The position numbers and the translations under genes were made by a program. Of a stretch of DNA of 21,222 bases, positions 1,803 through 21,183 are shown piece by piece. A model generated the notes under the pieces. It was not told the DNA's origin. It saw only the letters and a program-made list of their open reading frames with translations, and did no database searches. Numbering within the stretch: position 1 is the first letter of the stretch; each line of letters opens with the position of its first letter. The stretch comes from a virus, in IMG/VR virus record IMGVR_UViG_3300032214_000572, positions 1 to 21,222 of that record. One strand, 5' to 3'.

Positions 1803-1807
1803 TACAT

Positions 1808-3381: not shown

Positions 3382-6300
3382 ATGGCAAGAAAAACGATAG
3401 ACATCGGCGTTGTAGGCAACGACGGCACAGGCGATAGCATTCGCGACTCATTTAGAAAAGTCAATGACAATTTCCGCGAACTTTATGGAGCATTAGGGCT
3501 AGGCAGCAGACTACGCTTTGCTACCTTAGAAGATGCTCCTCCGGGAGGCGAAGGCGATGATTATTATAGAGGTTTAGAAAACGCAATCGTAGCTGTAAAT
3601 GCTGACGAATCTGGATTAATTTTTAAACAGTTAGTTGCCGGTACTGGTATAAGTTTAAACTTTACTAACGAAAATCAAATTGAAGTTACTAATACAAGAT
3701 CAACAGTAGCAGCCGATCCTGCCCCTAGACTAGGTGGAAATTTACAAGGCCAGTCTGGTGGCGTTCAATATCGTATACAGCAACTTACTACGCCTATCAC
3801 TTCAGACGAGGCTGCAAACAAAGCCTATGCTGATACCAAAATTGCTCTTGCTGGAGTAAATGCACAAGATCCAGCAGCTGGTAATGCAATTAACACAGCA
3901 TTTGGTACTATGACCGGACCGTTAATTTTGTCCAGGAACCCGGAACCAGAAGATGATATTACCTATGGTGGTTTTATTGCTGCTACAAAAAACTACGTGG
4001 ATAATGCAGGCTTTGCGTCAGTAGCAAACTTGTTTGTTGCCACGTCCGGCTCAGACGAAAGAATTGGAGTTGGAGCTAGTGTTCAAGGACGAGCATTGCC
4101 CTTTGCCTATAGAACACTAGAAGCTGCTTTAAAAAGAGCAGAAGAACTTATTTTAGAAGCGCCGCCTGAAATTGGACCTTACAAAAAGGTACTAACTTGG
4201 ACAAATCCAGATAGCGGAGTTATTAATGATTGTACACTTGCTGATATCGATGTATCTGACGATAACGGTGCAGGATTTGCTGGAAGGGTTACGTTAACTA
4301 TTGATACTATTGAACTAGTATCAGGTGGTTTTAACTATCAAGTAGGAGAAATTTTAAGAATTAATGCTGTCGGTGGTGACACTATTAATGCGGCAACTGT
4401 AGAAATTTTAACTGTAAACAGTTCCCCAGGTACACCCAACGGTCCAATTCTTACCTTTAGATTGTTAACTGGCGGTAAGTTTGACGAAGGTGCAGACGGT
4501 TTAGGTCCTGGACTTCCTGTCGAAGGCCCTACAGGTATAACTGTTACCGCCGGAAGTACCTTTGGTACCAACGGTGTGTTTGCTGTTACCTACAAAGTAA
4601 GCACAGCTCTTATTCAATCGGCCGGAACTGGATATAGTTTAGTTTCAGTTCGAGTCGAACCTACAATTACAGACACCGATGCAAGATCTGGATTTGGCTT
4701 TGCTGATGTTGTATCTGGTGCTATTGCTGGTATTACCATCACCGACGGCGGCAATAACTTTACTGAGTTTCCTAATCTAATTGTTAGCCTTCCTAGATTC
4801 TTAATCTACACAGGAGGTCAAAGAACTGATTTTACTGGTGATGTAACCACCGACAGCGCAGAAGCACGTAGAGGACGAGATATTAGAGAAGGTCTATATC
4901 TACAAGGTGAAACATCCGGAGCTCTAGCTCAAATCCTAGCTCACAGCGGTGCGTTGGATACGTTAGGTAACGAGATATTCGATATTGATATCAAATACGG
5001 AACATTTGAAATTGGCGAAAAGATCAGCTACGGCGATGTTGCCAATAGTAGACAGATTTCAGTTCTTGTAGAAAGTGGAATCTATTACGAAAACCTTCCT
5101 TTGAAGATTCCACAAAACGTTGCAATTATCGGTGATGAATTCCGCAGAACAATTATTCGTCCAAAGAAAGGAGCTAGCTCAAGCCCTTGGGCATTTAAAT
5201 ATTTTAGAAGAGATAAAATTATCGATGGGTTGAATACCGCTAGAAGTGATTACAACGCCGCTAGAGAAGACCTGTATGGTTATCATTATCTAACCAATGC
5301 CGACGAACCAGTATATGACGAAGCATTAATTAACAACAAAGGTTTCTATAGATCTGCTGCTGACCTATTAAGACTTAACAAGAAATTTATTCAGGAAGAA
5401 GTAATAACTTGGATCAATAAACAGATTGCAGAAGAAATAGCACCATTTGTCGGATTTGAATATAACTCGGATATTTGCAAACGAGATGTGGGATTGTTAA
5501 TTGACGCTATGGTCTTTGACCTTAGATACGGCAGTGCTCCAAGAACTATTTCGGCAGCACTAAAATACAAAGATGCAAACAATGCCAGCGCGGTACTAGC
5601 TATTACCGAGCAGTTAGATCAAACTATTGCAGCCATTCGAAGATTAGAAACTGTTGCTCAGGCAGCTATTCGAAACATTGAAATTGTAAATTCTGAATAT
5701 CTGCAACCTATTACAGGAACCCTAATAACCTATAGTGAGCCTCAGGTTATCGATACTGCCTATACAGCAGAAACAGGATCAGGCGGAACTCCTGTTACAG
5801 TATCCTCAGTGACTAAAGGTGTTACAACAACAATTACTACTACCGGAACACACGGACTACTTACAGGGGAAATTGTTACCTTCCGAAATATGTTAGGACT
5901 GACTAATCTGAATGGTAACAGCTATTGGATCACTGTAGCGACTCCTACGCAGTTTGTAATCTATACTGATCAGGCTAGATCTATACCAGTAAACAGTACA
6001 GACTTTGCAGGAACATATACTGCAAATTCAGGAGATGCTGTGCCTAATGGTGGAGTTATCGGCAGGCTAACTGACGTTATCATTGACATTATTGACACAG
6101 GCAGCGAATCATACAATGTGCCATTAGACAATGACAAAATGGATGTATTCTTATGCAACGATGCAGTTATTGGTCGTGCTATGACATTGCAAGGGGCCGG
6201 AGGCTTCGGCTGCGTACTAGATCCCGAAGGTCAAATTCTTGCCAAGTCTCCTTACTTCCAGGAAGGTGCTGTGTTCTCAAAGAGTACAGGACGTCAAACC

Positions 6301-9300
6301 TTTGCAGGTGGTATGTTCATCGACGGCTTTGCAGGTAATATTAAATTTAGAATTACCAATAAGATTAGTAATACTAGACTAGAAGTCAGCGACCTAAAAC
6401 GCTTCCCTCAATTGCCAGCTTCGTTTATCGTTGAAGATACTGTATACCGTATTAACTATGTTCGAGATTTTGAATACGGCACCAGCGGCAGTACAGCTAC
6501 GTTTGTTCTAGACGAAGTTACTCCTTGGCCGTTTGATGTGTTTACCTATAATGAAAGTATCTGTAATAGAGACGTTGGATTAATCATCGATGGCCTAGGC
6601 TATGATATTGTATTTGGTTCAAACTATCACAGCAGAAGAGCAGGTCAAACCTATAGAGAAGCCAATGCTGAAGTTGTAATTAACGATCAACTTAACTTAA
6701 CAGTAAGGGCAATTGATCGAGCTCACGACCTAGCAGATGAAACTCTTGCTGCTCTAATTCCTGCTACCAATTACAACACCAGTCGAGCTGTAGTATCTCA
6801 AAGTAAATTAAACTTAAAAAATATTATTCGAAGAGGTGTTACTGCTGCTCCGACATTGAGTATTCCCAATCCAACTGGATTAGCCAGCAACATTGCCAAT
6901 GCCAAATTGTCGTTGATCAATAATACAGAATTCTTGAAACAAGTTGGAACTGGTTATATTACAACTACATATCCATCTCTGGCATTTAGTGCTCCGGATA
7001 GTCAGAAAGATATTGAAAGAATTATAGATGCACTCTGTTACGATTTGACCTATGGAGGCAATAGCGAGATTCGCAAGTCTGCGTATGCGTACTTTAATGG
7101 TGTAGGTGATGCCCTAGTTATTCAACTGTTATCAACACAGCCCGAAGCCTGTGAAAATGCATTAACGGTTGTTAAGAATGCTGCAAAAAATGTCATTGTT
7201 AATACTACGGTTACTCCAACATATGGTGCTACCACAGGGCAGCGCACCGATGGCCCTGCTAGTGATATTGCAATTCAAGGTGAAATTGAAACTTTGATGA
7301 GCATTATTATTACAGCTCTAAATACCTATAGAATAACTGCTGGCACAGAGGCAGCAAAATTAGCTGCGGCCGTGGCAACATTGCCAGCTGAAGTTTTACC
7401 TAACTTGTCAGCATATGCTTACGAAACTGCTAGAAAAACTGCTAGAACAACTTTACAGACTTCTAAAGCTACCATTCAATCAGATGTTATAAGTTTTGTC
7501 AACGACAATGCCAACGTCTATGAAGTTCTAATGCCTGGTAATAGAAGTATGTTGTCAAACGACTTTACACAGATCTGCGATATGGGCTACGGCCTAGTCA
7601 CAGCCAACGGTGGTCTTGCCGAAGCTGTGTCTATGTTTACCTATTACTGCTACACTTCATACTTCTCATTATCCGGAGGACAAATTCGAAGTGTTGGCGG
7701 ATCGAGTGCGCACGGTGTGTATGCTCTAGCTGCCGAAGGTTCAGATCCGTTAGAAGTTCCAACGCCTGTTGATCTTTACTATGATCTTGGTCAAGGTGCT
7801 GTAGTCTATAACGACGGCGGTGTATATGATAACGATGTCAACGGATTTATTATCTACGTTACTGATTATACCTATCCTCCAAGAGATGGTAGTGAAATTG
7901 AAATTGATCACGGGGGTACCGATGGACTTGTTCGATATCCTATCATTAGTGCAGTTACCGAAACTGATTTTCCGGCAGACTCTACAGGTCAAAAGATCTA
8001 TCGTTTAAATTTAGATTCGGATACCAGCGGACTTATTGCTGGGGTACCTAATGGAACTAGAGTAACTTTACGTGTTAACACCGAAGTTGTGTTAACTGGT
8101 GATGTAGTTGGTGTTGCAGTTCGCCCGTCTACAGCTTTAAAAATTAACGAATTATTTGATACACAATTATATCGTGTTTTAGAATTTGCAGATTACTTCC
8201 CTCCAGAAACAGAAAATACTGTTTGTACATTTACTACAGGTGCTGAGACTTTAATTACAGCCGCTAGTCACGGACAACGACCAGGATATCAAGTTAGATT
8301 TTATTCTAGCGGAGGCTTACCATCTGGATTAATTTCTGGAGACAGTTATTATATTATTGACAACGGTTTTACTGTTAATACATTTAAAGTATCACTAACT
8401 AAAGATGGACAGCCAGTGGCTACTACTACAGCAGGAGTAGGTAGTCATTACTTTGTTGCAGATGGACTTGCTGCTACTCAGTTGAAAGATGGATATAACT
8501 ATGCTGAAATGACCCTGTGGCCAAGGCAAGAATTTAGTCCAATAACTTTATCTTCACCGAATGCTTGGTCTGGAGGTCCTCGACTAATTCAAAGTGCAAC
8601 TGAAATACAATCAGGCACACGATACACGATCGTGACTGCAGGTAGTACAACTTGGACTTCAATCGGTGCTGCTGCCAATACTGCCGGAACAGTATTTACA
8701 GCCACTGGAACAGGAACTGGAACTGGAACAGCCGTAGTAAATTCTACATTGTTTACCTTTGATCATACTACCGATATTATTAGCAAGACTAGTCACGGAT
8801 TTAACAACGGAGATGTTATTAGATTTGAATCCAACGGCACAATGCCTAGCGGTGTGTTTACTTCCAGACAATATTTTGTTGTTAACAAGAACACTAACGA
8901 TTTTCAAATTGCTAGTTATTTTGGTGGCCCAGCCATTACATTTACTGATAACGGATCAGGTTATTTTGCAGTGGGTAAAGTTGACGGTAAGGTAGGTGAT
9001 AGTAATGTTGCTATTGTTGAAATAGGACCAGTAGATGCTGAACGTATTGTAGGATCAAAGTTAACCTTCCAAGGTAGAGATTATACCATTACTCAATATG
9101 ATGATGCAGACATAACCGGAGAACCATACGGTAAGATCTATTTCAATACTCCATTAGAAAATAGTGCTATTAAATTTGAAAGCCCTATTACAATGTTCGC
9201 AGGTGTTGCAGCACGTACAGAAGAATCTCAAGGTACACTAACTATTCGTATTTCATTAACTCGTGTAACTGGACACGACTTGTTAGAAATAGGTACTGGT

Positions 9301-12300
9301 TCTTATGCTGATACAAACTATCCTAGTGAAATTTACGGTGCTCCTGTACGTATTGCTACAGAAACATTGCTGGATACCACAGGTGAAGTTGAATACTCTC
9401 AGATTGTTGAAAGAGGTGAAGGACGTTGCTTCTTTGTAACCACTGACCAATTTGGTAACTTCTCCGTAGGTCCATTCTTTAGGGTTGATCAAGGTACTGG
9501 TACTGTTACATTCTCTGCTAGCTTGGCATTGAGTAACTTGAGTGGACTAGGATTTAAACGCGGTGTTCCAATCGCTGAATTCTCAACCGACACAACATTT
9601 AGTGATAACGCTACAGATACTGTACCAACAGAAAATGCTGCTCGTGGTTATATTGATCGTAGATTAGGTGTAAGCCACGGCGGAGATAGTATTGACGAAG
9701 GACGTTTAATTCCACCAACTTCGGGTGGCTTTATGGCACTGACTGGTCAGCTACCGATGAAAGGTATCATGAACATGAACGACTACAGAATTAGAAATGT
9801 AGCCGATCCTGTTGACCCCCAAGATGCTGTAAATCGACGAAGTATTAGTTTTGATGCTATTATTGCTAACTCATTCCCAGGACAGGCCGTAGATGCTGGA
9901 TACACTATTGCATTTACTGGAACGGGTAATGAAGGCCGTGCTGTAAAAATTGCAGGTGACTTAGAAGTTCCCGGTGACAATGCAATTACTACTGGTATTG
10001 ATTCAACAGCTAACGAATATAATATCTATATCAAATCAAATATTATTGATAATGCTAATATTAATTCAGCGGCGGCTATTGCTCAAAGTAAACTAGCAAT
10101 GGTTACTGCAAGTACTAGAGTAAACGCTGCCGGTATTACACAGGCTGATAGAGGCCTAGCAAGTTTTAATGATGCTGAATTTACAGTAACTAGTGGTTGG
10201 GTTGAATTAAAAACTAACGGAATTGCTGTAGGAAAATTAGCACAAGTTGCTACCGACACTGTTCTAGGTCGTAGTGCTAGCGGAACTGGTGATGTTAGTG
10301 CTGTAGCATTTAGCACAGTGGTTAATGAAGGCGGAGCAATTAAAAAATCTCAATATTCGTCAACTGGTTTCTTAAGACGAACTAATGCTTCGACATCTAG
10401 TGAAGACACAGACTACGGAGTGGTCGAAGCTGTAAGCGCATATACAAGTTTTACTGACGTTGTAGCTAACAGTAAACTTGTAATCAGAGACGGTAGCGGA
10501 GATATCGGTTCTAGAGATATTTACGCAAGTAGAAGATTTTATGTAGGAACTAGTGCTAGTGTTAATAAACTGTTGTCAGATACTTCTGTAACTGCTACAG
10601 GCGGTAGTATTAACGTATACGGTTTTAATGGTGTACTTGGAGTTAGCATTGGTGACGGTAGTTTGGTCAGCGATAAAGTTTCTTCTTATAGAAACAACAG
10701 TCATAGATTCCGTTTAAATGACGACTCGGCATTTGCTCCAATCCAAGTGAGCTCTATTACTTCTGACACATTTACCACAGGCGGCGCAACTACAGCTGGT
10801 ACCTTAACTGGTAACCTAACAATGAGCGCCAATAGTAGTCTAACACTAGGTACAGGAACAATTAACGCATCAGCAGGTACATTGCAGTCTACTACATTAA
10901 CCACTGGTGCTACTGGTACTGCTGGCTCATTGACTGGAACTTGGACTCTTCAAGGAGCTAGTAAAATAGTTGGACAGAGTACAAGTGAGATTGATTTTGC
11001 GTCTGGTAGTATCAAAACAAGATCGTTTACTACAGGAGCCAATACAACTACAGGTAATCTAACAGGTAACTGGAGTTTGACTTCGGGAAGTAAAATTGAT
11101 TACACTCTTGGAACACTACAGTCTACTACATTAACCACAGGCGCTACTGCCACAGCAGGTATTATTACTGGTCAGTGGTCAGTGGCTGCTGGATCTAGTA
11201 TTAGCTTAGGAACTAGCGGATTTACCACTAGAGCAATTACTACTGGTGCCGAAGCAACTACTGGTACATTGACAGGCGATTGGTCAATGGTTGGTACTAG
11301 TAATCTAACTTGGGGTACTGGTTATCTTGATATGAGAACTGGTACGTTCTATACTGATACTATTACTACAGGAGCAGCAGGAACAGCAGGAACTATAACA
11401 GGTAGTTGGTCAATGGTTGGTGCTAGCGATTTGACCTTAGGTACTGGTTTTATTGATGCTCGTTCAGGTACATTGTATTCAGACACTTTAACAACAGGAG
11501 CTAGTGGCACTGCTGGTCAAATTGTAGGAGCATGGACATTAGGAAGTGGAAGCACATTGGTTGCATCAACTATTGCTAGTCAGGCAAACTCTGCAACAAT
11601 TACTTCTACTAATGCTAACACAGCTAACACTATTGTTTCTCGAGACGCTAGTGGCAACTTCTCAGCTGGCACTGTTACAGTTAGTGGTTTAACTATCGGG
11701 TCTGATTCAATAGCTGAGTACATCGCTGACACAGTTGGTGCTATGGTAACCAGCAACACCGAATCAGGAATTAGTGTTACCTACGACGATGCAGATAATA
11801 CTTTGGACTTTGATGTTGGTGATTTTACTATTACATTAACCGGAGATGTTACTGGTACAGGTACAGTTACTAACCTAGGTAGCGTATCTATAACAACTAC
11901 AGTTTCAGCAGATTCCACAGTGTTAGGCACAGACACAACTGGTCAATATGCACAGACGGTTGCTGTCAGCGGTAGCGGATTAACTTGTACAGCACCAAAC
12001 GCTGCCGACGGTACTGCTTATACTATTTCAAGTAATGCTACCAATGCTAATACAGGCAGCACAATTGTATTCCGTGATTCAAGTGGTAATTTTTCAGCGG
12101 GGACTATCACTGCTGCACTAAGTGGAAATGCAAGCACTGCTAGCACTTGGCAGACTGCAAGGACATTAACACTGGCAGGCGACCTAAGCGGTAGTGTAAG
12201 TATTAGTGGTGGAGGCGATGTAACATTAACAGCTACCGTTGTTGCTGATGCCGTAGCGTTGGGGACTGATACTACAGGTAGTTATGTTCAGCAAGGTGCT

Positions 12301-12849
12301 ACAAGCGGTAACGGCATTAGCGGTAGTGTAAACAGCGAAGCTGGAACATTTACAGTAACTTCAAATGCTACCAGTGCAAACACTGCTAATACGATTGTGT
12401 TCCGTGATGCTAGTGGTAACTTTAGTGCTGGTGTTATGACTGGTACAGCCACAGCAGCTCGTTATGCTGACTTGGCAGAACGCTATGCTACCGACAAAGA
12501 ATATCCAGTAGGAACAGTTGTTGTGTTTGGCGGTGATAAAGAAATTACCGTTACCAATACAAAAATGGATACCAGAGTAGCAGGTATTATTTCTGCTAAC
12601 CCGGCCTATATGATGAACTGCGAAGCAGGCGATGACAAAACACATCCATATGTTGCTCTAGCTGGTCGTGTACCTTGCCGTGTAGCAGGTAAAATTAAGA
12701 AAGGTGATCTATTGATTACCAGCGGAATACCAGGAGTAGCTGTTGCTGCTTCAGGCGATATAAAGGTAGGATCTATGATTGGAAAAGCACTTGAGGACTA
12801 TGACTCAGATCACATAGGTACAATTGAAGTTGTAGCAGGGAGAGGATAA
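3382..12849 (+). CDS. Giant 3155-aa tail fibre / adhesin
   Basis: A very long, modular virion protein expected to form an extended fibre that contacts the host surface. Order: N-terminal module with NDGTGDSIRDSFRKVNDNF (about 13-31); GGFIAATKNYVDN repeats; a beta-helix-like start at about 216-260 (GSDERIG, PFAYRTLEAAL) resumed at VAIIGDEFRRTIIRP; three helical CxRDVGxIIDAxxYDLxYG blocks (698, 1060, 1210); a conserved GYGLVTANGGLAEAVSMFTYY block (about 1400); three SHG modules; FVTTDQFGNFSVGPFFRVDQ (about 2018); seven TTGA-TAG-LTG-W repeats (2463-2720); three ANTIVxRDASGNFSAG motifs; and a C-terminal domain from YADLAERYA (about 3030). No enzyme active site is recognised. TTAGGA precedes the ATG. 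The stop overlaps the next start. Similar fibres occur in T4-like marine phages; the exact position on the virion is inferred. Confidence 0.85.
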   Translation: MARKTIDIGVVGNDGTGDSIRDSFRKVNDNFRELYGALGLGSRLRFATLEDAPPGGEGDDYYRGLENAIVAVNADESGLIFKQLVAGTGISLNFTNENQIEVTNTRSTVAADPAPRLGGNLQGQSGGVQYRIQQLTTPITSDEAANKAYADTKIALAGVNAQDPAAGNAINTAFGTMTGPLILSRNPEPEDDITYGGFIAATKNYVDNAGFASVANLFVATSGSDERIGVGASVQGRALPFAYRTLEAALKRAEELILEAPPEIGPYKKVLTWTNPDSGVINDCTLADIDVSDDNGAGFAGRVTLTIDTIELVSGGFNYQVGEILRINAVGGDTINAATVEILTVNSSPGTPNGPILTFRLLTGGKFDEGADGLGPGLPVEGPTGITVTAGSTFGTNGVFAVTYKVSTALIQSAGTGYSLVSVRVEPTITDTDARSGFGFADVVSGAIAGITITDGGNNFTEFPNLIVSLPRFLIYTGGQRTDFTGDVTTDSAEARRGRDIREGLYLQGETSGALAQILAHSGALDTLGNEIFDIDIKYGTFEIGEKISYGDVANSRQISVLVESGIYYENLPLKIPQNVAIIGDEFRRTIIRPKKGASSSPWAFKYFRRDKIIDGLNTARSDYNAAREDLYGYHYLTNADEPVYDEALINNKGFYRSAADLLRLNKKFIQEEVITWINKQIAEEIAPFVGFEYNSDICKRDVGLLIDAMVFDLRYGSAPRTISAALKYKDANNASAVLAITEQLDQTIAAIRRLETVAQAAIRNIEIVNSEYLQPITGTLITYSEPQVIDTAYTAETGSGGTPVTVSSVTKGVTTTITTTGTHGLLTGEIVTFRNMLGLTNLNGNSYWITVATPTQFVIYTDQARSIPVNSTDFAGTYTANSGDAVPNGGVIGRLTDVIIDIIDTGSESYNVPLDNDKMDVFLCNDAVIGRAMTLQGAGGFGCVLDPEGQILAKSPYFQEGAVFSKSTGRQTFAGGMFIDGFAGNIKFRITNKISNTRLEVSDLKRFPQLPASFIVEDTVYRINYVRDFEYGTSGSTATFVLDEVTPWPFDVFTYNESICNRDVGLIIDGLGYDIVFGSNYHSRRAGQTYREANAEVVINDQLNLTVRAIDRAHDLADETLAALIPATNYNTSRAVVSQSKLNLKNIIRRGVTAAPTLSIPNPTGLASNIANAKLSLINNTEFLKQVGTGYITTTYPSLAFSAPDSQKDIERIIDALCYDLTYGGNSEIRKSAYAYFNGVGDALVIQLLSTQPEACENALTVVKNAAKNVIVNTTVTPTYGATTGQRTDGPASDIAIQGEIETLMSIIITALNTYRITAGTEAAKLAAAVATLPAEVLPNLSAYAYETARKTARTTLQTSKATIQSDVISFVNDNANVYEVLMPGNRSMLSNDFTQICDMGYGLVTANGGLAEAVSMFTYYCYTSYFSLSGGQIRSVGGSSAHGVYALAAEGSDPLEVPTPVDLYYDLGQGAVVYNDGGVYDNDVNGFIIYVTDYTYPPRDGSEIEIDHGGTDGLVRYPIISAVTETDFPADSTGQKIYRLNLDSDTSGLIAGVPNGTRVTLRVNTEVVLTGDVVGVAVRPSTALKINELFDTQLYRVLEFADYFPPETENTVCTFTTGAETLITAASHGQRPGYQVRFYSSGGLPSGLISGDSYYIIDNGFTVNTFKVSLTKDGQPVATTTAGVGSHYFVADGLAATQLKDGYNYAEMTLWPRQEFSPITLSSPNAWSGGPRLIQSATEIQSGTRYTIVTAGSTTWTSIGAAANTAGTVFTATGTGTGTGTAVVNSTLFTFDHTTDIISKTSHGFNNGDVIRFESNGTMPSGVFTSRQYFVVNKNTNDFQIASYFGGPAITFTDNGSGYFAVGKVDGKVGDSNVAIVEIGPVDAERIVGSKLTFQGRDYTITQYDDADITGEPYGKIYFNTPLENSAIKFESPITMFAGVAARTEESQGTLTIRISLTRVTGHDLLEIGTGSYADTNYPSEIYGAPVRIATETLLDTTGEVEYSQIVERGEGRCFFVTTDQFGNFSVGPFFRVDQGTGTVTFSASLALSNLSGLGFKRGVPIAEFSTDTTFSDNATDTVPTENAARGYIDRRLGVSHGGDSIDEGRLIPPTSGGFMALTGQLPMKGIMNMNDYRIRNVADPVDPQDAVNRRSISFDAIIANSFPGQAVDAGYTIAFTGTGNEGRAVKIAGDLEVPGDNAITTGIDSTANEYNIYIKSNIIDNANINSAAAIAQSKLAMVTASTRVNAAGITQADRGLASFNDAEFTVTSGWVELKTNGIAVGKLAQVATDTVLGRSASGTGDVSAVAFSTVVNEGGAIKKSQYSSTGFLRRTNASTSSEDTDYGVVEAVSAYTSFTDVVANSKLVIRDGSGDIGSRDIYASRRFYVGTSASVNKLLSDTSVTATGGSINVYGFNGVLGVSIGDGSLVSDKVSSYRNNSHRFRLNDDSAFAPIQVSSITSDTFTTGGATTAGTLTGNLTMSANSSLTLGTGTINASAGTLQSTTLTTGATGTAGSLTGTWTLQGASKIVGQSTSEIDFASGSIKTRSFTTGANTTTGNLTGNWSLTSGSKIDYTLGTLQSTTLTTGATATAGIITGQWSVAAGSSISLGTSGFTTRAITTGAEATTGTLTGDWSMVGTSNLTWGTGYLDMRTGTFYTDTITTGAAGTAGTITGSWSMVGASDLTLGTGFIDARSGTLYSDTLTTGASGTAGQIVGAWTLGSGSTLVASTIASQANSATITSTNANTANTIVSRDASGNFSAGTVTVSGLTIGSDSIAEYIADTVGAMVTSNTESGISVTYDDADNTLDFDVGDFTITLTGDVTGTGTVTNLGSVSITTTVSADSTVLGTDTTGQYAQTVAVSGSGLTCTAPNAADGTAYTISSNATNANTGSTIVFRDSSGNFSAGTITAALSGNASTASTWQTARTLTLAGDLSGSVSISGGGDVTLTATVVADAVALGTDTTGSYVQQGATSGNGISGSVNSEAGTFTVTSNATSANTANTIVFRDASGNFSAGVMTGTATAARYADLAERYATDKEYPVGTVVVFGGDKEITVTNTKMDTRVAGIISANPAYMMNCEAGDDKTHPYVALAGRVPCRVAGKIKKGDLLITSGIPGVAVAASGDIKVGSMIGKALEDYDSDHIGTIEVVAGRG
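5473..5535 (+). repeat. CxRDVGxxIDAxxxDLxYG block, copy 1
   Basis: Encodes ICKRDVGLLIDAMVFDLRYG (residues 698 onward of the giant fibre), the first of three diverged copies of an amphipathic helical motif. The flanks contain long helical stretches (for example LAITEQLDQTIAAIRRLETV), unusual in an otherwise beta-rich protein. Confidence 0.7.
6559..6624 (+). repeat. CxRDVGxxIDAxxxDLxYG block, copy 2
   Basis: Encodes ICNRDVGLIIDGLGYDIVFG (residues 1060 onward). It is followed, as in copy 1, by a helical stretch (EVVINDQLNLTVRAIDRAHD) and by polar residues that look like a coiled helix pair. Confidence 0.7.
7009..7062 (+). repeat. CxRDVGxxIDAxxxDLxYG block, copy 3
   Basis: Encodes DIERIIDALCYDLTYGGN (residues 1210 onward). 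The Cys-Lys/Asn-Arg lead is lost but IDALxYDLxYGGN is intact, so this is a more diverged copy of the two earlier blocks. Spacing to copy 2 is about 150 residues, against about 360 between copies 1 and 2. Confidence 0.6.
8704..8730 (+). repeat. Short six-base tandem repeat encoding Thr-Gly
   Basis: Units of the type ACTGGA / ACAGGA repeat in frame and encode alternating Thr-Gly just after the block AAANTAGTVFTATG. A repeat of this kind can change length in steps of two residues without a frameshift. Confidence 0.6.
10768..11541 (+). repeat. Seven diverged protein repeats in the giant fibre
   Basis: Seven copies of a unit reading roughly T-[LFI]-T-T-G-A-x-x-T-[AT]-G-x-[LI]-[TV]-G-x-[WL]-[TS]-[LMV] start near 10768, 10894, 11023, 11128, 11233, 11359 and 11485. 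Periods are 42, 43, 35, 35, 42 and 42 residues, that is, two unit lengths differing by about seven residues. Between the units lie SxLTLGTGxIxAxxGTLQS-type spacers. At DNA level the copies have diverged, but one 20-base segment (CAGTCTACTACATTAACCAC) occurs in two of them. Confidence 0.85.
12838..12845 (+). promoter_or_regulatory. Strong ribosome-binding site overlapping the end of the giant fibre gene
   Basis: GGGAGAGG precedes the ATG at 12849 by three bases (its GGGAG core by six) and lies within the last codons of the upstream gene, whose TAA stop shares one base with that ATG. It fixes the start of the 471-residue fibre gene. Confidence 0.8.
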
Positions 12850-14264
12850 TGGCAAGACAAACTATAACACCAGGTTCGGCTCCTATAGTGTGGAGTACTG
12901 TTGACGATGCATTTGAAAAGATCAATGCTAATTTTGCAGAACTGTATGCTAGCGTAGGTGGCGATGCAATTGGATTTGATGCACTAGAAAGTGATCTAGT
13001 ACCTGCACAAAATGACACCTACGATTTAGGTAGTCCGCAAAAACGTTGGGCTAGTGTTTACATCAGCGATACTCTTAGTATCGGCGGCGCTGCTATTACC
13101 AACGAAGGATTAACAGTTGATCTTCCTAGCGGAACTACCGTAGCCGGCCAATTGATTATTGATCCAGATAAAGCATTTTTTAAAGAATTCTCAGTTGACG
13201 GGGAAACATCTGTTATAGCTGATCAGTTTAATGATGTTTTAGATTTTAGTTCAGGGACCGGAATTCAACTAAGTGTTAATTCATCTAACGATCAAATAAC
13301 TATAGCCAACAACGGAGTAACATCTTTAACTGCTGGAACTGGAATAAGCGTTAGCGGATCAAGTGGTGCTGTTACTGTAACTAATGCTGGTGTTAGATCA
13401 GCGGCGGCCGGTCTAGGCATAAGTGTTAGTAGTGCGACGGGCACAGTTACTTTTGCAAATTCTGGAATAGTTGAAATTGACAGCGGCAATATTACTAACC
13501 TAACTGTTAGTGCTAGAGATCCAGTTACCGGTAAAGTTACCATAACCAACACCGCTCCAGCAGGTAATGCCTATAGAATTGTCAGTGTGGTAAACAGTGT
13601 AGGCAGTATTGAAAACACTCTTAATGCTAACAGTACTGGTGCAACAATTATTCTTCAAGAAGGCACAGGTATCAATCTCGTTGGAACAACTACTCCGAAT
13701 AAAGTTGTTTTTGAAAACTCAGGTGTTACTAGTTTAATTGGCGGAAACGGTATTACAGTTAGTTCTGCCACTGGTGCAGTGACTGTGAGTATTGGCCGAG
13801 GTGATTTGATTGGCAGTGTGTTTGCTGACGACTCTACAATACTGGTAGATGGAACTAACGGAGTTCTTCGAGGAACACTTATTGGAAGTTTAACTGGTAA
13901 CGTTACAGGAAATACAGCAGGAGTACACACTGGAAACGTTTCAGGTAATGTCACTGGAAACGTAACAGGTAATGTCACTGGAAACGTAACAGGCAATGTT
14001 GTTGGTAATGTAGACGGCGATATTACTGGCAGTGTATTCAGCGACAGTTCAACAATGTTAATTGACGGTACTGAAGGAAAAGTAGTTGGAGTAGTTGAAA
14101 CAACCACAGTCACTGCCAGCAGCTATATTCAAACTGCTACCTATGCTGACCTAACCGCAATTGCTGCCGGTATTCCAACTGCGGTCAAAGGCATGATAGT
14201 ATTCGACGACGGAACAAATCAATTTAGAGGCTTTGATGGCTCTAGTTGGGTAGCATTAAATTAA
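12849..14264 (+). CDS. Tail fibre-like structural protein with GNVTGN repeats
   Basis: A 471-residue virion protein. The N-terminus carries a diverged copy of the shared fibre module (STVDDAFEKINANFAELYAS, about 15-34), followed by DTYDLGSPQKRWASVYIS, a segment frequent in T4-like phage structural proteins. The middle is beta-rich, with GTGI-SVSGSSGAVTVTN-type repeats (GVTSLTAGTGISV, GVRSAAAGLGISV, GVTSLIGGNGITV). Then comes a run of GNVTGN hexapeptides (about 345-392) and SVFSDSSTMLIDG, which echoes SVFADDSTILVDG earlier. The C-terminal tail GMIVFDDGTNQFRGFDGSSW looks like a conserved fibre tip. No catalytic motif is seen. The gene is coupled to the giant fibre (one-base overlap) and followed 11 bases later by another fibre gene. 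It may be a second fibre subunit or a fibre cap; which one cannot be told from sequence. Confidence 0.82.
   Translation: MARQTITPGSAPIVWSTVDDAFEKINANFAELYASVGGDAIGFDALESDLVPAQNDTYDLGSPQKRWASVYISDTLSIGGAAITNEGLTVDLPSGTTVAGQLIIDPDKAFFKEFSVDGETSVIADQFNDVLDFSSGTGIQLSVNSSNDQITIANNGVTSLTAGTGISVSGSSGAVTVTNAGVRSAAAGLGISVSSATGTVTFANSGIVEIDSGNITNLTVSARDPVTGKVTITNTAPAGNAYRIVSVVNSVGSIENTLNANSTGATIILQEGTGINLVGTTTPNKVVFENSGVTSLIGGNGITVSSATGAVTVSIGRGDLIGSVFADDSTILVDGTNGVLRGTLIGSLTGNVTGNTAGVHTGNVSGNVTGNVTGNVTGNVTGNVVGNVDGDITGSVFSDSSTMLIDGTEGKVVGVVETTTVTASSYIQTATYADLTAIAAGIPTAVKGMIVFDDGTNQFRGFDGSSWVALN
13893..14024 (+). repeat. GNVTGN tandem repeat with an exact 24-base duplication
   Basis: A run of six-residue GNVTGN-like units in the 471-residue fibre. 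Within it two 24-base units (13944-13967 and 13968-13991) are identical, while the flanking units have diverged. Exact identity suggests a recent duplication or ongoing slippage in an in-frame array. Confidence 0.85.
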
Positions 14265-14265
14265 T

Positions 14266-14269
14266 GGAG
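14266..14269 (+). promoter_or_regulatory. Ribosome-binding site GGAG for the 943-aa fibre gene
   Basis: GGAG lies six bases before the ATG at 14276 in the 11-base gap after the previous stop. It is the only signal in that gap, so the gene is read from an upstream promoter. Confidence 0.75.
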
Positions 14270-14275
14270 CGATAG

Positions 14276-17107
14276 ATGGCTAAAAAAGTAATTAGAACTG
14301 GCACAACTGCTGACCCAACCGGTGACAGCCTTAAGAATGCCTTTACCAAGGTAAATGACAATTTTACAGAACTGTATAATGCATTAGGCCTAGATGCAGA
14401 AACACTTAACCTAGGTGCGTTTGAATTTGCTGGTAGTGTAATGACTACTACAGATAGTACACCTATTGTTATTGATCAAGCTACCACCATAACCAGCAAC
14501 CTGTCAGTAGGTGGAGATATTCTTCCGCAGACTGCCAATGGTGGGGATCTAGGCTCAAGCACACTGCCTTGGCGTAGCCTGTATGTCAGCAACAACACTA
14601 TCTACATTGGTGGCACAGCAGTAGGTCTAGATGCTAATGGTAATCTAACAGTCAATGGCGGTCAAGTAAATGCTCCGAGCAGCACATTGGTCAACGGTTC
14701 AAAGACTGTTAGCCTTGGCTCAGATGGTAATTTAACTCTACCAGCAGGCGGCACTATACTCAACAGTTCAGGTCAACCTTATGTGAATGGCGTGTCCAGC
14801 ATCAACACATCAGTCTCCACTTCAATTTTCACTGATGCCAGTGGTGATTATCAATACGGAACATTGAGCTATGACTATGCGGTCAACGGTGTATCAAATA
14901 GCTTTAGTATAGAATATTCTCGACCACTGGTAGGTGGTAATGTGGACATCAATGTTGGCAATACGATTGTCAACGGTGATTTAACCTTATCAGGCGACAT
15001 CAAGAGCAACGGCAACATTAATATCGATATAAATCTTGCAGATTCGACTCTGCGCCGTTGGCAGTTTGGCGAAGATGGCCATTTGACATTGCCAGCAGGC
15101 GGCGACATTAAAGATAGTACAGGCACAAGTGTACTAGGTGGCGGCGGCAGCGTCAGCAGTTTAGTTAACGGTGCTTACACAGTCAGTCTTGGATCAACTG
15201 GTACTCTAACAGTACCGGCAAATGGAATCATAACAGCACCCATTAATCAAGAATTTCAACTACAGGCCAAAGATGCCAATTCTGTATTAAGAAATGAAAT
15301 AAATCTAGACCCTAATAATGGCACTTATATGAGTGTGTGGCGTGATGGAGAGACTTCTTTTTCTTCCGCTGGTTGGGGCAGTGGATCGTGGAATAACGAA
15401 GGCGGCTTGGGTGCCGCCCGCTTTACCGATGCCCAAGCCCTTCAGAATTTTTGGACCACCGGCCCTGGCAGTATTGAAGGTGTTGCCATTGAAGCCTCCA
15501 TCAATGGCGGGGCAAGGACCCCCAATGTTTTTTATGAAAACAACAATGGCGAAACATATGGTGTTTTTCTTGGCCTGGATGCTGTTCCTCCTGGAGGACA
15601 GGGAACAACCGTACCAATAACCAGTTTAGTTTTTTACTACCGACTGCAAAGCAAAATTAATATGGATGTCACTGGTAATGAGATACTAGTTGACGCTCAG
15701 GCTATGGATATTGATTTGCGAACCACACTCAATCTAGATTTACGAGCCAACGAAAATTTAAATCTACGAGGTCTTGGTTCGTATCCTGTTAGAATTTACA
15801 CTAACGGTATCACCCATAAGTGGGAATTTGATAACACAGGTTCGTTAACACTGCCACCCGACGGCAAGATATACGGTATTGGTGCTGGCGCCAACGACCG
15901 TTATGGTTATATGTTTTGGGACGGCGAATCATCGGGCGACGGGTCGGGTTTCAATACCATGAGGTTGGTGCCTGATCAAAACCTTGAATCAGCCGACCAA
16001 TATATTATTTTAGATCCTACAGCTGGTGCACCAGGACACATTCATATTCGTGCTGGTGGAACACAAGACAACAGTCTAGCACATTTATATTTGGGCGGTG
16101 AGCACAGTCATGTAAAAATAAGTGCAGGGCTAAATCCTCCTGTGACTGTAATGGCCAACGACAACTCTTGGACATTTGGCACAAGTGGTGATCTAACAAT
16201 ACCAGGCGATATTAAAGGCACAGCTAACACATCAATAATTGTAGATAATGTTGTGCTATTCGCAAATGTTACAGTAGAACAAGCTCAACCATATGGTCCC
16301 AGCGGTTCGCGTGTGTTTATTTCAGAAAGTGCTTATCCCACTTTGGGCTCAATTGTTCAGGTAGGCGACACCGTAACTATAGGCTGGGGAACTCCCATAA
16401 CTGTTACCATTACCAACATCACCGGCGGTGGTTTCTGGGAACTGCGCTTTAATCAAATTATAACCGCAGAATTAATACTTAATCCGGGAACAATTACAAT
16501 TACTTCGGCACAGGTTAACACTTGGACATTTGACAATGATGGCGGACTGACATTCCCAGACGGTACTGTGCAGACCACAGCCTGGACTGGTACATTTAGC
16601 ACATTGTCAGTTACTGGTGCCGTCACAGCTGAAAGATTCAACACTGATCAAATCACAGTAGTGGGCAATAGAATCAGCACAACGGTCACAAACGCTAATC
16701 TTGAATTAGAATGCAACGGCTCTGGTGGTGTTGTAATCAATGCCGTAGCAGATGCTACCACAGCCAGTACTGCCAAGAGCGTGGGCTATTTAGGTCTACC
16801 ACAGAGTGCGACTGCTACCGATGGCACCCTGGCCATGAGTGATGCTGGCAAACACATTTATGTGACTACTGCAGGCCAGACCATAGCTATTCCGGACAAC
16901 TCATTAGTGGCCTATCCCATAGGAACTACTCTTACATTTATTGCAGGTCCAAGTGCTACCACAGTGCTTATTGTGATTAACACAGATACATTGAGATTGG
17001 CAGGCAGCAGTTCAACTGGTACAAGAACACTGGCTGCAAATGGTATGGCCACAGCAGTCAAGGTAGCGTCTACCTTGTGGTACATTAACGGAATAGGACT
17101 AACATAA
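14276..17107 (+). CDS. Tail fibre protein, 943 aa, with HxH motifs and conserved tip domain
   Basis: A large virion protein. Residues 1-45 hold the shared fibre module (TADPTGDSLKNAFTKVNDNF), then GGDLGSSTLPWRSLYVS. The body repeats W-x-F-x-x-x-G-x-LT-[LIF]-P units (near 260, 516, 631 and 749, for example RWQFGEDGHLTLPAGG), the last ending FPDGTVQTTAW. A conserved block at about 570-615 reads YIILDPTAG, then HIHIRAGG and GGEHSHVK, giving two His-x-His pairs. The C-terminal part (about 830-943) contains SVGYLGLPQSA, DAGKHIYVTTAG, IPIGTT-like PIGTTLTF and ANGMATAVKVASTLWYI, a domain that ends many phage fibres. GGAG stands six bases before the ATG. A stretch near 15340-15660 has a different codon flavour. 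Host-surface binding is the likely role, inferred from architecture. Confidence 0.82.
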   Translation: MAKKVIRTGTTADPTGDSLKNAFTKVNDNFTELYNALGLDAETLNLGAFEFAGSVMTTTDSTPIVIDQATTITSNLSVGGDILPQTANGGDLGSSTLPWRSLYVSNNTIYIGGTAVGLDANGNLTVNGGQVNAPSSTLVNGSKTVSLGSDGNLTLPAGGTILNSSGQPYVNGVSSINTSVSTSIFTDASGDYQYGTLSYDYAVNGVSNSFSIEYSRPLVGGNVDINVGNTIVNGDLTLSGDIKSNGNINIDINLADSTLRRWQFGEDGHLTLPAGGDIKDSTGTSVLGGGGSVSSLVNGAYTVSLGSTGTLTVPANGIITAPINQEFQLQAKDANSVLRNEINLDPNNGTYMSVWRDGETSFSSAGWGSGSWNNEGGLGAARFTDAQALQNFWTTGPGSIEGVAIEASINGGARTPNVFYENNNGETYGVFLGLDAVPPGGQGTTVPITSLVFYYRLQSKINMDVTGNEILVDAQAMDIDLRTTLNLDLRANENLNLRGLGSYPVRIYTNGITHKWEFDNTGSLTLPPDGKIYGIGAGANDRYGYMFWDGESSGDGSGFNTMRLVPDQNLESADQYIILDPTAGAPGHIHIRAGGTQDNSLAHLYLGGEHSHVKISAGLNPPVTVMANDNSWTFGTSGDLTIPGDIKGTANTSIIVDNVVLFANVTVEQAQPYGPSGSRVFISESAYPTLGSIVQVGDTVTIGWGTPITVTITNITGGGFWELRFNQIITAELILNPGTITITSAQVNTWTFDNDGGLTFPDGTVQTTAWTGTFSTLSVTGAVTAERFNTDQITVVGNRISTTVTNANLELECNGSGGVVINAVADATTASTAKSVGYLGLPQSATATDGTLAMSDAGKHIYVTTAGQTIAIPDNSLVAYPIGTTLTFIAGPSATTVLIVINTDTLRLAGSSSTGTRTLAANGMATAVKVASTLWYINGIGLT

Positions 17108-17108
17108 T

Positions 17109-17819
17109 ATGGCAGGAGCAGTAGCATTACTGGCCAGTTACGGGGCATACACGCCTCCTCCCGGCTTTGAGAATCCTAGCCTCACAGTAGGTTCAGCAGT
17201 ATCTACTGTAGCACAAAGTCCGTTTGCGGGTGGTGGCAATAGTTATAGTTTTAGCAGCAGTGTGAATTCATTCATTGATACTCCTGCTTCAAGTGACTGG
17301 GCTGTAGGCACAGGTGACTTTACCATAGAATGGTTTAGTTATCAAACTACCTTAACTGGATTCCAACGGGCATTTACAGTAGACGACTTTGCCAGTATTG
17401 ACATCGGCAGCAGCATTGAATCAGGTACATTCTATTACTGGGCAAATGATACTTTTAGATATAGTTCTTCATCTGCATCTACAGCAAACACTTGGATACA
17501 CTGGGCTATAGTTCGTGCCAGCGGCATCACTAAGGTATATAAAAATGGCGTTCTGCGAGGTAGTCAAATTTCAGACTCCTTTAATATCAACAATACTGTT
17601 GATGAACTTACCATAGGTAATGAAAATACAGCTTCTACTATTGCCGCATTTGTAGGATACATTACTAATTTCCGTTGGATCAAAGGTCTAGCCGTTTATA
17701 CTGGCGACTTTACAGTTCCAACAAGTGTGCTGACCGCAGAAGCATCAGCTAATCCATACGGCGGAGCTAACACTGCTGCCGTTGGTGCAGGTTTCACTAA
17801 ACTACTGCTGGTTCCATAA
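17109..17819 (+). CDS. Concanavalin A-like / LamG-type lectin domain protein
   Basis: A 236-residue protein that is mostly one Laminin_G_3 / concanavalin A-like jelly-roll domain (about residues 40-220), the fold used by phage and bacterial adhesins for glycan binding. Recognisable pieces are SYSFSSSVNSFIDTP, GTGDFTIEWFSY, NTWIHWAIVRASG, KVYKNGVLRG, VDELTIGNEN, and the closing FVGYITNFRWIKGLAVYTGDF followed by TVPTS, all in the usual family order. The N-terminal 40 residues are Gly/Ala/Pro-rich and lack the shared fibre module, so it probably attaches through another protein. It starts one base after the previous stop with AGGA about 13 bases upstream, implying co-transcription with the 943-residue fibre. 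No signal peptide or catalytic glycosidase residues are evident. Glycan-binding is an inference from the fold. Confidence 0.85.
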   Translation: MAGAVALLASYGAYTPPPGFENPSLTVGSAVSTVAQSPFAGGGNSYSFSSSVNSFIDTPASSDWAVGTGDFTIEWFSYQTTLTGFQRAFTVDDFASIDIGSSIESGTFYYWANDTFRYSSSSASTANTWIHWAIVRASGITKVYKNGVLRGSQISDSFNINNTVDELTIGNENTASTIAAFVGYITNFRWIKGLAVYTGDFTVPTSVLTAEASANPYGGANTAAVGAGFTKLLLVP

Positions 17820-17821
17820 CG

Positions 17822-17828
17822 GTAAATA
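17822..17828 (+). promoter_or_regulatory. Late-type promoter box GTAAATA before the 184-aa gene
   Basis: GTAAATA lies just after the stop of the lectin gene and 18 bases before the ATG at 17847. The longer string GGTAAATATAC is identical to that before sod. T4-like spacing puts transcription start near 17834, directly at the AAAGAGAG ribosome-binding site. It would allow separate expression of the last three genes. Confidence 0.5.
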
Positions 17829-17846
17829 TACTAAAGAGAGCGGACT

Positions 17847-18401
17847 ATGGCAACTATACAAACAATCAACATTGGTAACATCGTAAACGACGGTCTAGGC
17901 GATGATCTACGCACCGCGTTTCAAAAGGTAAATGCTAATTTTACATCATTAAATGCTGCGTTAACTGTAACAGCCAGTAACCTGGGCACAGTTGGCGAGA
18001 GTGTTTTTAAACAGAAGAACGGTGTTAATTTAGAATTTAAGAAATTAGTAGCCGGCAATAAGATTACAATTACCAGTAGTCCAGATAGTTTGTTAATTGC
18101 CAGTTCAGTAGGAACATCGTTTACTAGAATTACTACTCAAAGCGGGTTTATTGATGCCGACGATCACGAGTTTGTTACTATTCAAGGCGATGCAGATGTT
18201 ACTGTGAGTGCTGTCAACGATGTTATTACAGTTAGCACTACCCTAGATTTAAATCAAATTTTAAAAGTTGTAGACTTTGGACCTATTAATGGATCGTATT
18301 CTAGTACCGTACAAATGAATACAGCAGGCTTAAACTTAGACTTTGGCACCTACACAAATCCAGGAACTATAAATTTAGACCTGGGACTTTTAAATTCCTA
18401 A
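17847..18401 (+). CDS. Short fibre-like structural protein (184 aa)
   Basis: A compact member of the fibre group. The shared N-terminal module is very clear (VNDGLGDDLRTAFQKVNANF, about 12-31). It is followed by SVFKQKNGVNLEFKKLVAGNKITITSS, which resembles the region after the module in the giant fibre (LIFKQLVAGTGISLNF), so the two are paralogues over at least 100 residues. The C-terminal half is beta-rich, with FGPINGSYSST and a repeated LDFG / LDLG ending. At 184 residues it has the docking module but no long shaft or tip, so it may be a connector, cap or competitor at the fibre attachment site. It has its own late-type promoter box and an AAAGAGAG ribosome-binding site, and the next gene starts one base after its stop. 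Confidence 0.78.
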   Translation: MATIQTINIGNIVNDGLGDDLRTAFQKVNANFTSLNAALTVTASNLGTVGESVFKQKNGVNLEFKKLVAGNKITITSSPDSLLIASSVGTSFTRITTQSGFIDADDHEFVTIQGDADVTVSAVNDVITVSTTLDLNQILKVVDFGPINGSYSSTVQMNTAGLNLDFGTYTNPGTINLDLGLLNS

Positions 18402-18402: not shown

Positions 18403-21183
18403 ATGACAATAAGATGGATCACACCTGCAGGAAATCTAAGCACCGTTGTAGAACGTGTCAGCCTTAGCATTCCCATAGAAGCAACATCAAATGTTGGTCC
18501 CGTTACTTTCAGTGTAATTTCAGGAAGACTACCTCGAGGAGTGAGGCTAGATACTACCGTATCATCTGACAGCAGTGTCTATACTGTGTTAATCAAAGGT
18601 TCTCCAACTGAAGTTCGTAGATTTACTACTAACAGATTTGTTATTCGTGCCAGCGACGGACAAGACTTAGAAGATAGAACATTTAGCATAAGCATAGACG
18701 GAGACGATGCACCTCAGTGGATTACTCGAGAAGGTTTTCTAAACGTAGGGCCTGCAAATGCATATTATGTCTTAGACAACAGCTACGTAAATTTTCAACT
18801 AGAAGTCCGAGACCCAGACATTATCGCTGGTGACACTATTGAATATTATCTTATTCCTAACGGTGGAGAACTACCTCCCGGATTAACATTAACTAGAGAT
18901 GGCCGTATTAATGGCTACACTGATCCAGTGTTTGCTTTAGAATACAACGATTCGAGAACTGGTGCCTACGATAGCGGCACATTTGACACGCAACCATTAG
19001 ACCTTGCCAATACGGCTACCACAGGTTTTGATAGTTTTATCTATGATTTTGAGGATTGGGACACACAAGAAACTACCAAAGCCCCTAGAAGACTCAGTAG
19101 ATTTTATACATTTATCGTTGCGGCATCTGACGGCGTACACGAAGTAAGAAGATTATTTAAAATTTGGGTAGTCACTGAAGAATTTTTAAAATCCGATAAT
19201 ACCATTGTTCAGGTTGACACAAACATATTTCAGGCTGACGGAGATGGTACACGTAGACCAATATGGGTCACTGCCAGTGATCTTGGACGAGTACGTGCTA
19301 ATAATTATGTTACTGTATTTTTAGATGTATACGATCCGCCTAGTCTCGAAGGGACTATGGCCTACTTCAAACTTAATACTAATCCAGGAACCTATCAGCT
19401 TAAATCAACAGGTGAAATTAGTTACGAAGGGTATTACGAACTGTCTGAAATTCAACCTACCTTTAAGTACACAGTTAAAGGTACCTGGAGTAGTAGCATA
19501 AATTATCTAGTAGGTGATCTTGTAGTCTATGGTACACAGAGTTTTGTCTGTCAACAAAATCACATCAATCACGTACCTGCAAACGGAAGTTTTTGGAACG
19601 ATGATTTTTCGTCTATAACTTCAACCTTTAATCCTGCATCGGCCGCAAGCTGGACTGTTATTGAACCAGAAACAGCCAGTATATTTCCTCCAGGAATGAC
19701 ATTGGATGTGCAGACTGGAGAGATAGCCGGGCGTGTTCCTTATCAGGCTGCGGTTACTAAAAACTATAAATTTACCTTAGAAGCTGTAAGTTTTCCCCCT
19801 GTACTGTTTGAACAAAACTATACATTAAGAGGTGACTGGAATTCAACCACTGACTATGTTGTGGGCGATGCTGTAAGGTATGGAGTTTATCTGTGGGTCT
19901 GTATTAAGGATCATAGATTCCAATCTCCTCAAGATGGAATATATTGGGACCGAGGTGTTTCTACTACAGCTAAAACTTTTAGTATAAATGTTATAGGTGA
20001 AATCGAAAGTGCTATCGAATGGCTAACCGACAACAATCTAGGAACTATTCCTCCAAACATTGCCAGCGATAAACAAGTTATTGCAGAAACTAAACTTTAC
20101 GGCGGACGAACAGTCTACGAACTTGTCAGCGGTGAACTGCCTCCTGGCCTTGAACTTATTTCAAATGGTTTTATTCAAGGAAAGGTTAAACAATTTGCAG
20201 ATGTTAACGGACTTGGGCTTACACGATTCTATGAACGGGTCGACTCTGCTGAAGATAGTTCTACAAGATCTAGAACATTTAATGAATCGTTCGACGGCGA
20301 AACTACCAGTTTTGATAGAAAATTTACCTTTGATATTAAGGCCAAAGACGCAATTAACGTTGCAGAAAACATAAGAACTTTTACGTTAACTGTTGCTACT
20401 AAGACAAATACTACCTTTGCAAATCTTTATGCCAAAGCCTTCCAGGCCAAAGATAAACGCCTTGCCTGGTATAATTTTATCACGGACAATACAATTTTTA
20501 GAGAGAATGAAATATATCGATACGGCGATCCTAACTTTGGAATTCAGCCTGAATTAAAAATGTTAATGTACGCAGGAATCGAAAGCCGAGATGCAGAATT
20601 TTTTATACAGGCAATGAGTCGTAACCATTACAGAAAGCAAGTAAGATTTGGCGCAGTAAAGTCAGCAGTAGCCAAAGATCCTGTTACTCAAATACCAATT
20701 TACGAAGTTGTCTACGTGGAAATTGTAGATGAATTTGAAAATGCCGATAAGAAAAGTATCAGTAATGTAGTACAATTAAGAAACGACATTAACAGCAAGG
20801 TCTTAGTTAGCTACGATGCTATAAAGATTGACAGTAATATTCCCCTGGTCAGCGACAGCGATCATCAAAGAATATTCCCAAATTCATATAAAAATATGCG
20901 TAAGCAAATTAAAGCTATGGGTGAACGAGATAGAGATTTTTTGCCTCTGTGGATGCGCAGTATTCAACCAGATACTTTTGCAGAACCAGGTTGGGTCAAA
21001 AGTGTAGTACTCTGCTATTTAAAACCCGGATATTCAACTAATGTACTAACCCGAATTAAAAATCAAAACTTTGATTTCAAAACTCTTGACTTTACAATAG
21101 ACCGCTACCTGATTGACGTGATCAGCGGAGTCTTTGAGAATAAATACCTAGCGTTCGCACAACGTGGAGAAAAACTACCGTGA
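18403..21183 (+). CDS. Large structural protein with Ig-like (He_PIG) and CBM5/12-like domains
   Basis: A 926-residue virion protein. It has four copies of the putative-Ig signature: GRLPRGVRLD (about 41-50), GELPPGLTLTRDGRINGY (about 154-171), FPPGMTLDVQTGEIAGRVP (about 427-445) and GELPPGLELISNGFIQGKV (about 578-596). Two chitin-binding-like modules of the CBM5/12 pattern sit next to the third: GTWSSSINYLVGDLVVYG (about 356) and GDWNSTTDYVVGDAVRYG (about 476), each ending in a CxxxH and an aromatic Trp. The C-terminal third is different, with FLPLWMRSIQPDTF and DRYLIDVISG blocks conserved in T4-like marine phages. The role could be a baseplate or fibre-connector protein with decorations that touch glycans. 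It begins one base after the previous stop with little ribosome-binding signal. It lacks the shared fibre module. Function is inferred from architecture. Confidence 0.8.
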   Translation: MTIRWITPAGNLSTVVERVSLSIPIEATSNVGPVTFSVISGRLPRGVRLDTTVSSDSSVYTVLIKGSPTEVRRFTTNRFVIRASDGQDLEDRTFSISIDGDDAPQWITREGFLNVGPANAYYVLDNSYVNFQLEVRDPDIIAGDTIEYYLIPNGGELPPGLTLTRDGRINGYTDPVFALEYNDSRTGAYDSGTFDTQPLDLANTATTGFDSFIYDFEDWDTQETTKAPRRLSRFYTFIVAASDGVHEVRRLFKIWVVTEEFLKSDNTIVQVDTNIFQADGDGTRRPIWVTASDLGRVRANNYVTVFLDVYDPPSLEGTMAYFKLNTNPGTYQLKSTGEISYEGYYELSEIQPTFKYTVKGTWSSSINYLVGDLVVYGTQSFVCQQNHINHVPANGSFWNDDFSSITSTFNPASAASWTVIEPETASIFPPGMTLDVQTGEIAGRVPYQAAVTKNYKFTLEAVSFPPVLFEQNYTLRGDWNSTTDYVVGDAVRYGVYLWVCIKDHRFQSPQDGIYWDRGVSTTAKTFSINVIGEIESAIEWLTDNNLGTIPPNIASDKQVIAETKLYGGRTVYELVSGELPPGLELISNGFIQGKVKQFADVNGLGLTRFYERVDSAEDSSTRSRTFNESFDGETTSFDRKFTFDIKAKDAINVAENIRTFTLTVATKTNTTFANLYAKAFQAKDKRLAWYNFITDNTIFRENEIYRYGDPNFGIQPELKMLMYAGIESRDAEFFIQAMSRNHYRKQVRFGAVKSAVAKDPVTQIPIYEVVYVEIVDEFENADKKSISNVVQLRNDINSKVLVSYDAIKIDSNIPLVSDSDHQRIFPNSYKNMRKQIKAMGERDRDFLPLWMRSIQPDTFAEPGWVKSVVLCYLKPGYSTNVLTRIKNQNFDFKTLDFTIDRYLIDVISGVFENKYLAFAQRGEKLP
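21166..21169 (+). promoter_or_regulatory. Ribosome-binding site GGAG for the truncated last gene
   Basis: GGAG followed by a run of A stands ten bases before a GTG that overlaps the stop codon of the 926-residue gene (GTGA). The spacing is slightly long but acceptable and supports GTG as the start. Confidence 0.55.

Follow-up and report, generated by a model that had tools for sequence, protein, structure and literature searches.

A docking-type N-terminal segment related to T4 gp9 and gp10 on four proteins of one viral fibre cassette

The window analysed here is an entire virus record of 21,222 bases (IMG/VR IMGVR_UViG_3300032214_000572), which is probably a fragment. Its right two thirds carry a fibre cassette on one strand. 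The cassette starts with a complete ORF for a giant fibre-like protein of 3155 aa (3382..12849, + strand; slot A), with matches to tail-fibre PHROGs over its body. The start codon of the next gene, a complete ORF for a fibre-like protein of 471 aa (12849..14264, +; slot B), overlaps the stop codon of A (TAATG), and a complete ORF for a fibre-like protein of 943 aa follows (14276..17107, +; slot C). Downstream lie a 236-aa protein with a LamG/concanavalin-A-like lectin domain (17109..17819, +; Laminin_G_3, E 1.3e-10) and a short conserved protein of 184 aa, a complete ORF represented by a 17-row alignment (17847..18401, +; slot D). The co-conserved neighbour of D is a 926-aa protein (18403..21183, +) with Ig-like (He_PIG) and CBM_5_12-like domains by Pfam. 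Its stop codon is overlapped by the GTG start of a further gene, the 5' end of which closes the window (21180..21222, +; VTSNINYLSINENF...); this gene belongs to a family termed E, with a full-length relative at L001:12778-13362 (loci on other contigs carry L numbers). Upstream of the fibre genes (477-3024) are genes for a UvdE-type endonuclease, an Fe/Mn superoxide dismutase, a NifU/IscU-like scaffold and an IscA-like Fe-S protein, and in several relatives a small Fe-S-type gene, similar by sequence, also precedes A. A 93-aa Ala/Pro/Lys-rich ORF on the opposite strand (1486-1767, −) has no Pfam match. Promoters are not in excess in the window (37 found versus 35.8 expected).

The proteins A, B, C and D have an N-terminal segment of about 41 residues in common, far above chance (3382-3504, 12849-12971, 14276-14398 and 17847-17969, all +). 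When the fourth copy was searched with a profile of the other three, A, B, C and D scored 56.6, 25.7, 49.9 and 35.4 bits, respectively, against a maximum of 3.5 bits for any other ORF of the window (89 ORFs) and of 10.7 bits for shuffled sequences (2000 per test). The common N-terminal motif that a first-pass annotation had noticed on these four genes is thus borne out, and all four are complete ORFs. Its pattern, TGDxLRxAFxKVNxNFxELY, describes A, C and D; the B module has no TGD and reads PGSAPIVWSTVDDAFEKINANFAELY, with the helix part AF.KIN.NF.ELY retained. The annotation had also stated that the four proteins diverge completely after the module. Pairwise blastp (E<=1e-3) yields a single match for each of the pairs A-B, A-C, A-D, B-C and C-D and none for B-D, and all of these matches begin inside the module, the range ending at residue 40-141, so that the statement holds except for a weak extension in A-B, A-D and B-C. 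In the window as well as in its relatives, the module forms the extreme N-terminus of its proteins.

A profile of 31 module sequences was compared with 177,635 PDB sequences, and the five distinct matches at E<=1 are all T4-type gp10 or gp9 (best E 2.4e-12). On eight T4 proteins, the same profile matches gp10 (residues 2-40) and gp9 (residues 7-46), with no match on gp6, gp7, gp8, gp11, gp12 or the part of wac that was included. The whole D protein also matches T4 gp10 in the PDB (E 0.004). Since gp10 and gp9 are the only proteins matched in the PDB set, the shared segment is, by homology, the N-terminal docking segment of the T4 baseplate proteins gp9 and gp10, and the earlier view of a docking-type module at the N-terminus of otherwise different fibre-like proteins is upheld. 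The homology covers the segment, not whole gp9 or gp10: the stretches after the module (the next ~146-231 residues in A, B and C, and the corresponding stretch in D) have no match to phrog_677 or phrog_958 at E<=1, and over these stretches the middle and C-terminal domains that characterize a whole gp9 or gp10 are not found. The Pfam family T4_gp9_10_N (PF07880; cut-off 25 bits) is approached by D at 17.1 bits and has no match to A-C at E<=0.1; as this model spans 175 positions, many more than the common segment, we do not count A-D among its full members.

Searched alone, the 41-aa A module and the C module match phrog_677 (T4 gp9 type; E 8.9e-13 and 2.6e-11, respectively), B matches the same family at E 0.0087, and D matches phrog_958 (T4 gp10 type; E 8.7e-8). 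All six A modules and all six C modules compared prefer phrog_677. The link of B to gp9 is weak: three of six B modules match phrog_677 (E 0.002-0.009) and the other three match no family. The best family for D is phrog_958 in two of six, phrog_8859 in one and phrog_677 in three; it is gp10-type in the window and gp9-type in three of the five other contigs. As the matches of D are mixed, an assignment of D to gp10 and of A and C to gp9 proper is not pressed.

According to the excerpts of the T4 study used here (PMC3004832), the N-terminal domain of gp9 binds a domain of the wedge protein gp7, the long fibre sits on the C-terminal domain of gp9, gp10 has 23% identity to gp9 over its first 200 residues, and gp9 and gp10 occupy different places on one wedge. 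By analogy with gp9, which binds gp7 through this domain, and with its homologue gp10, the segment is best interpreted as a plug into the baseplate. A very improbable alternative is that it serves fibre N-termini as a general cap for trimerisation or chaperone recognition and lacks a dedicated partner on the baseplate. In favour of this, it precedes unrelated bodies, and conservation falls mainly on a single predicted helix (residues 17-38 of D, from an AlphaFold2 model with a mean pLDDT of 46, too poor for structure search). However, conserved residues are also present ahead of the helix, the modules have slot-specific signatures, and its homologues, gp9 and gp10, belong to the baseplate, the former binding gp7 through its N-terminal domain in the same excerpts.

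The approximately 40 N-terminal residues are already common to two proteins in T4, whereas four proteins carry them in the window; moreover, A-D have very different lengths, the B variant is divergent, and the stretches tested after the module are unlike the gp9/gp10 families. The A module shares 50% identity with gp9 of cyanophage P-SSM4 across 52 residues, annotated as 'baseplate wedge tail fiber connector', but the number of modules per phage (E<=0.01) is one in S-SSM4, one in Mosig and none in P-SSM2, as compared with two in T4. A scan of cellular genomes returned 178 stretches fitting the pattern, among them one weak relative (24 residues, Methylobacterium). The relevant literature, as far as its excerpts go, concerns T4, CBA120, RaK2, phiKp24 and A-1(L), with one use of PF07880 as a marker; within these full texts, outside of which most subscription journals lie, no phage with more than two gp9/gp10-type N-terminal segments is described.

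Scans of viral contigs yielded five loci for the 926-aa protein, 31 for D and, as the best ones, 80 for the module, and module ORFs are present in all 80 of the latter. Among 20 whole environmental contigs, eight have four module matches and seven have three (E<=0.001); in the other five there are one or two matches, none of them farther than about 14.2 kb from a contig end. The gene order in relatives is A, (B), C, D, 926-aa family, E, interrupted in places by other genes. In L003, a fifth module protein follows the 926-aa homologue and belongs to the cyanophage gp9 family (phrog_677, E 1.6e-61). The content between C and D varies: relatives carry module-less fibres, a fatty-acid-desaturase-like gene (L016) or nothing, and it is this place that the LamG protein occupies in the window.

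For a nearest-neighbour comparison of the modules, slots were labelled from gene order, three-module contigs being taken as ACD or BCD by a first ORF of >1500 aa, and loci with fewer than three modules and 11 duplicates were left out. This gave 103 modules from 30 contigs among the matches listed, or 86 from 29 contigs (including the window) once identical ones were removed. The nearest module in another contig is of the same slot in all 86 cases among the matches listed, while labels shuffled within contigs gave at most 43 in 2000 tries. Among the same matches, the result is still 86 of 86 when contigs having a same-slot copy at least 80% identical are excluded, and 85 of 86 with a 70% exclusion, the sole miss being the C module of L010. 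In a tree, which is limited by the short alignment (39 columns), B forms one group (100/100) and D another (97/97) among the matches listed. The A group (99/95) also contains T4 gp9, and T4 gp10 stands beside D, both on long branches over these few columns. C is not a single group and takes three changes, the C modules of L080 and L126 lying outside the other C rows. The slot labels need five changes on the tree versus a mean of 48.9 after shuffling (among the matches listed). As judged from sequence, the docks are thus slot-specific, and their families are kept in parallel in a fixed order, which argues against a single shared socket. Each copy being kept distinct across related viruses, the modules look like plugs for different sockets.

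This bears directly on the proposal of the first-pass annotation that one site, or a set of equivalent sites, accommodates interchangeable or alternative fibres, so that particles with mixed fibres result. A homologous docking segment on all four proteins is what that proposal expects, and the C copies are not fully held apart, as seen for L080 and L126. Nevertheless, we regard it as quite unlikely, given that conservation is parallel and slot-specific (86/86 among the matches listed), that order is fixed with three to four copies per untruncated cassette, and that A and D lack cross-slot tip matches among the matches listed; neither the tie of module to slot nor the small number of label changes on the tree fits a shared site. 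The annotation had further regarded the protein of 184 residues as a shortened fibre, a view that is not sustained: D is conserved in its own right, its non-module part being retained across relatives.

The bodies of the four proteins differ in how they are kept. Between the window and four close relatives, whose 926-aa proteins are 77-80% identical, identity in D is 73-76% along almost the entire protein, B is retained over residues 1-342 or more at 55-62%, and C keeps only the first ~150-275 residues and scattered short pieces. The last 108 residues of the window C protein (836-943) are 68.5% identical to residues 472-579 of the slot B protein of L004. In a comparison of tips from 30 cassettes (E<=1e-5; cut-off or very short tips left out), the cross-slot matches among those listed comprise 48 pairs, all between B and C and many of them short, and A and D have none. 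The within-slot pairs among the matches listed number 120 for A-A (from 16 proteins), 193 for B-B, 95 for C-C and 306 for D-D. Exchange of tips between B and C is therefore evident at the level of sequence. With the listed cross-slot tip matches linking only B and C, and with C poorly and D well kept, B and C resemble fibres that face the receptor and can exchange their ends, and A and D resemble fixed parts. The length of C varies as well, with 67-120 residues (<=120 aa) in 22 of the 30 cassettes among the matches listed, many of which are near relatives of each other.

Another arrangement to be weighed is a branched fibre complex, in which only one of the proteins is attached to the baseplate, the other modules being plugged into a partner fibre. 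Such complexes are published for jumbo and related phages (excerpts of PMC8825819, PMC10253068 and PMC9700779), and the very long A could offer docking places. CBA120, RaK2 and phiKp24 resemble the present case in that several receptor-binding proteins per particle use T4 baseplate-type domains, although here this is read from genes. In these phages, as far as the excerpts describe them, one primary protein is anchored with an anchor domain of its own and the others branch off via gp10-like XD domains, whereas each protein of the window has its own gp9/gp10 segment at its extreme N-terminus. Neither such anchor domains nor the XD domains (XD2/XD3 jellyrolls) gave a Pfam or PHROGs match in A-D, where HMM scans can miss them. 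On this balance, a branched complex appears unlikely.

We consider it probable instead that the cassette encodes four dedicated gp9/gp10-type docks on one baseplate, with exchangeable tips on B and C. The N-terminal docking segment would then sit on four proteins of an uncultured large myovirus: a giant fibre (A), one of medium size (B), one that may be reduced to a stub (C) and a short protein resembling a pin (D). From the different places of gp9 and gp10 on the T4 wedge, together with the parallel conservation of the modules, we infer that the four proteins form trimers, dock on the wedge and occupy different places in the same particle. Each copy of the dock being specific to its own place, one wedge would probably carry four different trimers side by side, and a change of receptor range would likely come from exchanging the distal parts of B and C and not from replacing entire fibres at a single site. 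Docks that stay and tips that move would represent two evolutionary processes in one cassette, bearing on how receptors might be changed without breaking assembly. A more specific version, which we offer tentatively and hold to be rather doubtful, is that one wedge has four mutually exclusive sockets, each of them specific to one variant of a common ancestral docking segment. The socket code might be written in the residues around GD/PPLLW and in the helix, and the sockets might have to be filled, with slot C kept even at 67-120 residues and tips free to move between B and C. If this were true, the modules would provide a natural set of orthogonal anchors for several different fibres on one particle. 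The probable reading of four dedicated docks, with the aspects concerning the particle inferred, turns what appears as 'many fibre genes' into a testable layout of which socket takes which fibre, and the homology links a group of large uncultured myoviruses to the best understood contractile baseplate, that of T4.

The lineage to which the window belongs can be approached through its relatives. The L001 clamp loader has 53% identity to its counterpart in PA5oct-like phages and 46% to the one in Atu_ph07. The gp25 family is above the Pfam cut-off in two of 12 large contigs. Its neighbours there include matches to families of baseplate hub and gp6-type wedge proteins, and the protein beside gp6 shows 28-31% identity with virion proteins from Phosso, Atu_ph07 and PA5oct-like phages. 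The sheath family PF04984 is found in 0 of 12 contigs and stays below its cut-off in both of two phages. Taken together, gp25, the hub and gp6-type matches and the clamp loader point to large contractile-tailed phages. The jumbo myoviruses PA5oct (Wroclawvirus) and Atu_ph07 (Polybotosvirus) share the related clamp loader and the protein beside gp6 but differ in that the module is undetected at E<=0.01. This applies to all five cultured jumbo phages of this kind that were searched (Atu_ph07, Paride, Phosso, SCTP-2 and PA5oct), a 22-position match in Atu_ph07 (E 0.065) not being counted; hence the module is either a feature of the window's branch or has diverged elsewhere.

No relative of gp7 was identified. 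The 926-aa protein was considered as one, and its profile gave no gp7 match in the PDB. Its AlphaFold2 model is poor (mean pLDDT 51), and a fold search with it returned Ig-, cadherin- and glycoside-hydrolase-type rows. The 926-aa family is present in all 12 related contigs searched; the C-terminal part of the protein has a relative in Atu_ph07, which has parts of this protein, yet no module detected at E<=0.01. Candidate docking partners are the 926-aa family, as the closest neighbour, and the protein beside gp6, which has ~1.5-1.9 kaa in L140/L141.

L104:9778-11358 encodes a subtilase-type protein (Peptidase_S8, E 3.3e-33) beside the fibre cassette, and proteins of L084, L112 and L117 have starts resembling it. 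Other recurring N-termini of module-less fibres are found between C and D or beyond in L080, L084, L099, L106 and L112, examples being MANRIPLIVDxxDxNKLKELPxGDNL and xIRRGTxAxRLxxTPAxGELIYTTDTKKLYVGDG. Their recurrence suggests further docking families. The start of the E family, NENFPVAGQDNDTQxFRDNFDTIK, resembles the module by eye; as a candidate for a fifth, divergent module, the gene at 21180 was rejected, hhalign of 28 rows against the module profile giving a probability of 8% over eight columns. This N-terminus (NENFPVAG...RDN) begins proteins of ~190-205 aa in the nearer relatives of the window; family members include L036:18999-21629 besides the L001 gene. In Atu_ph07 it caps an 876-aa protein (gp328), and it is possibly another reused docking end.
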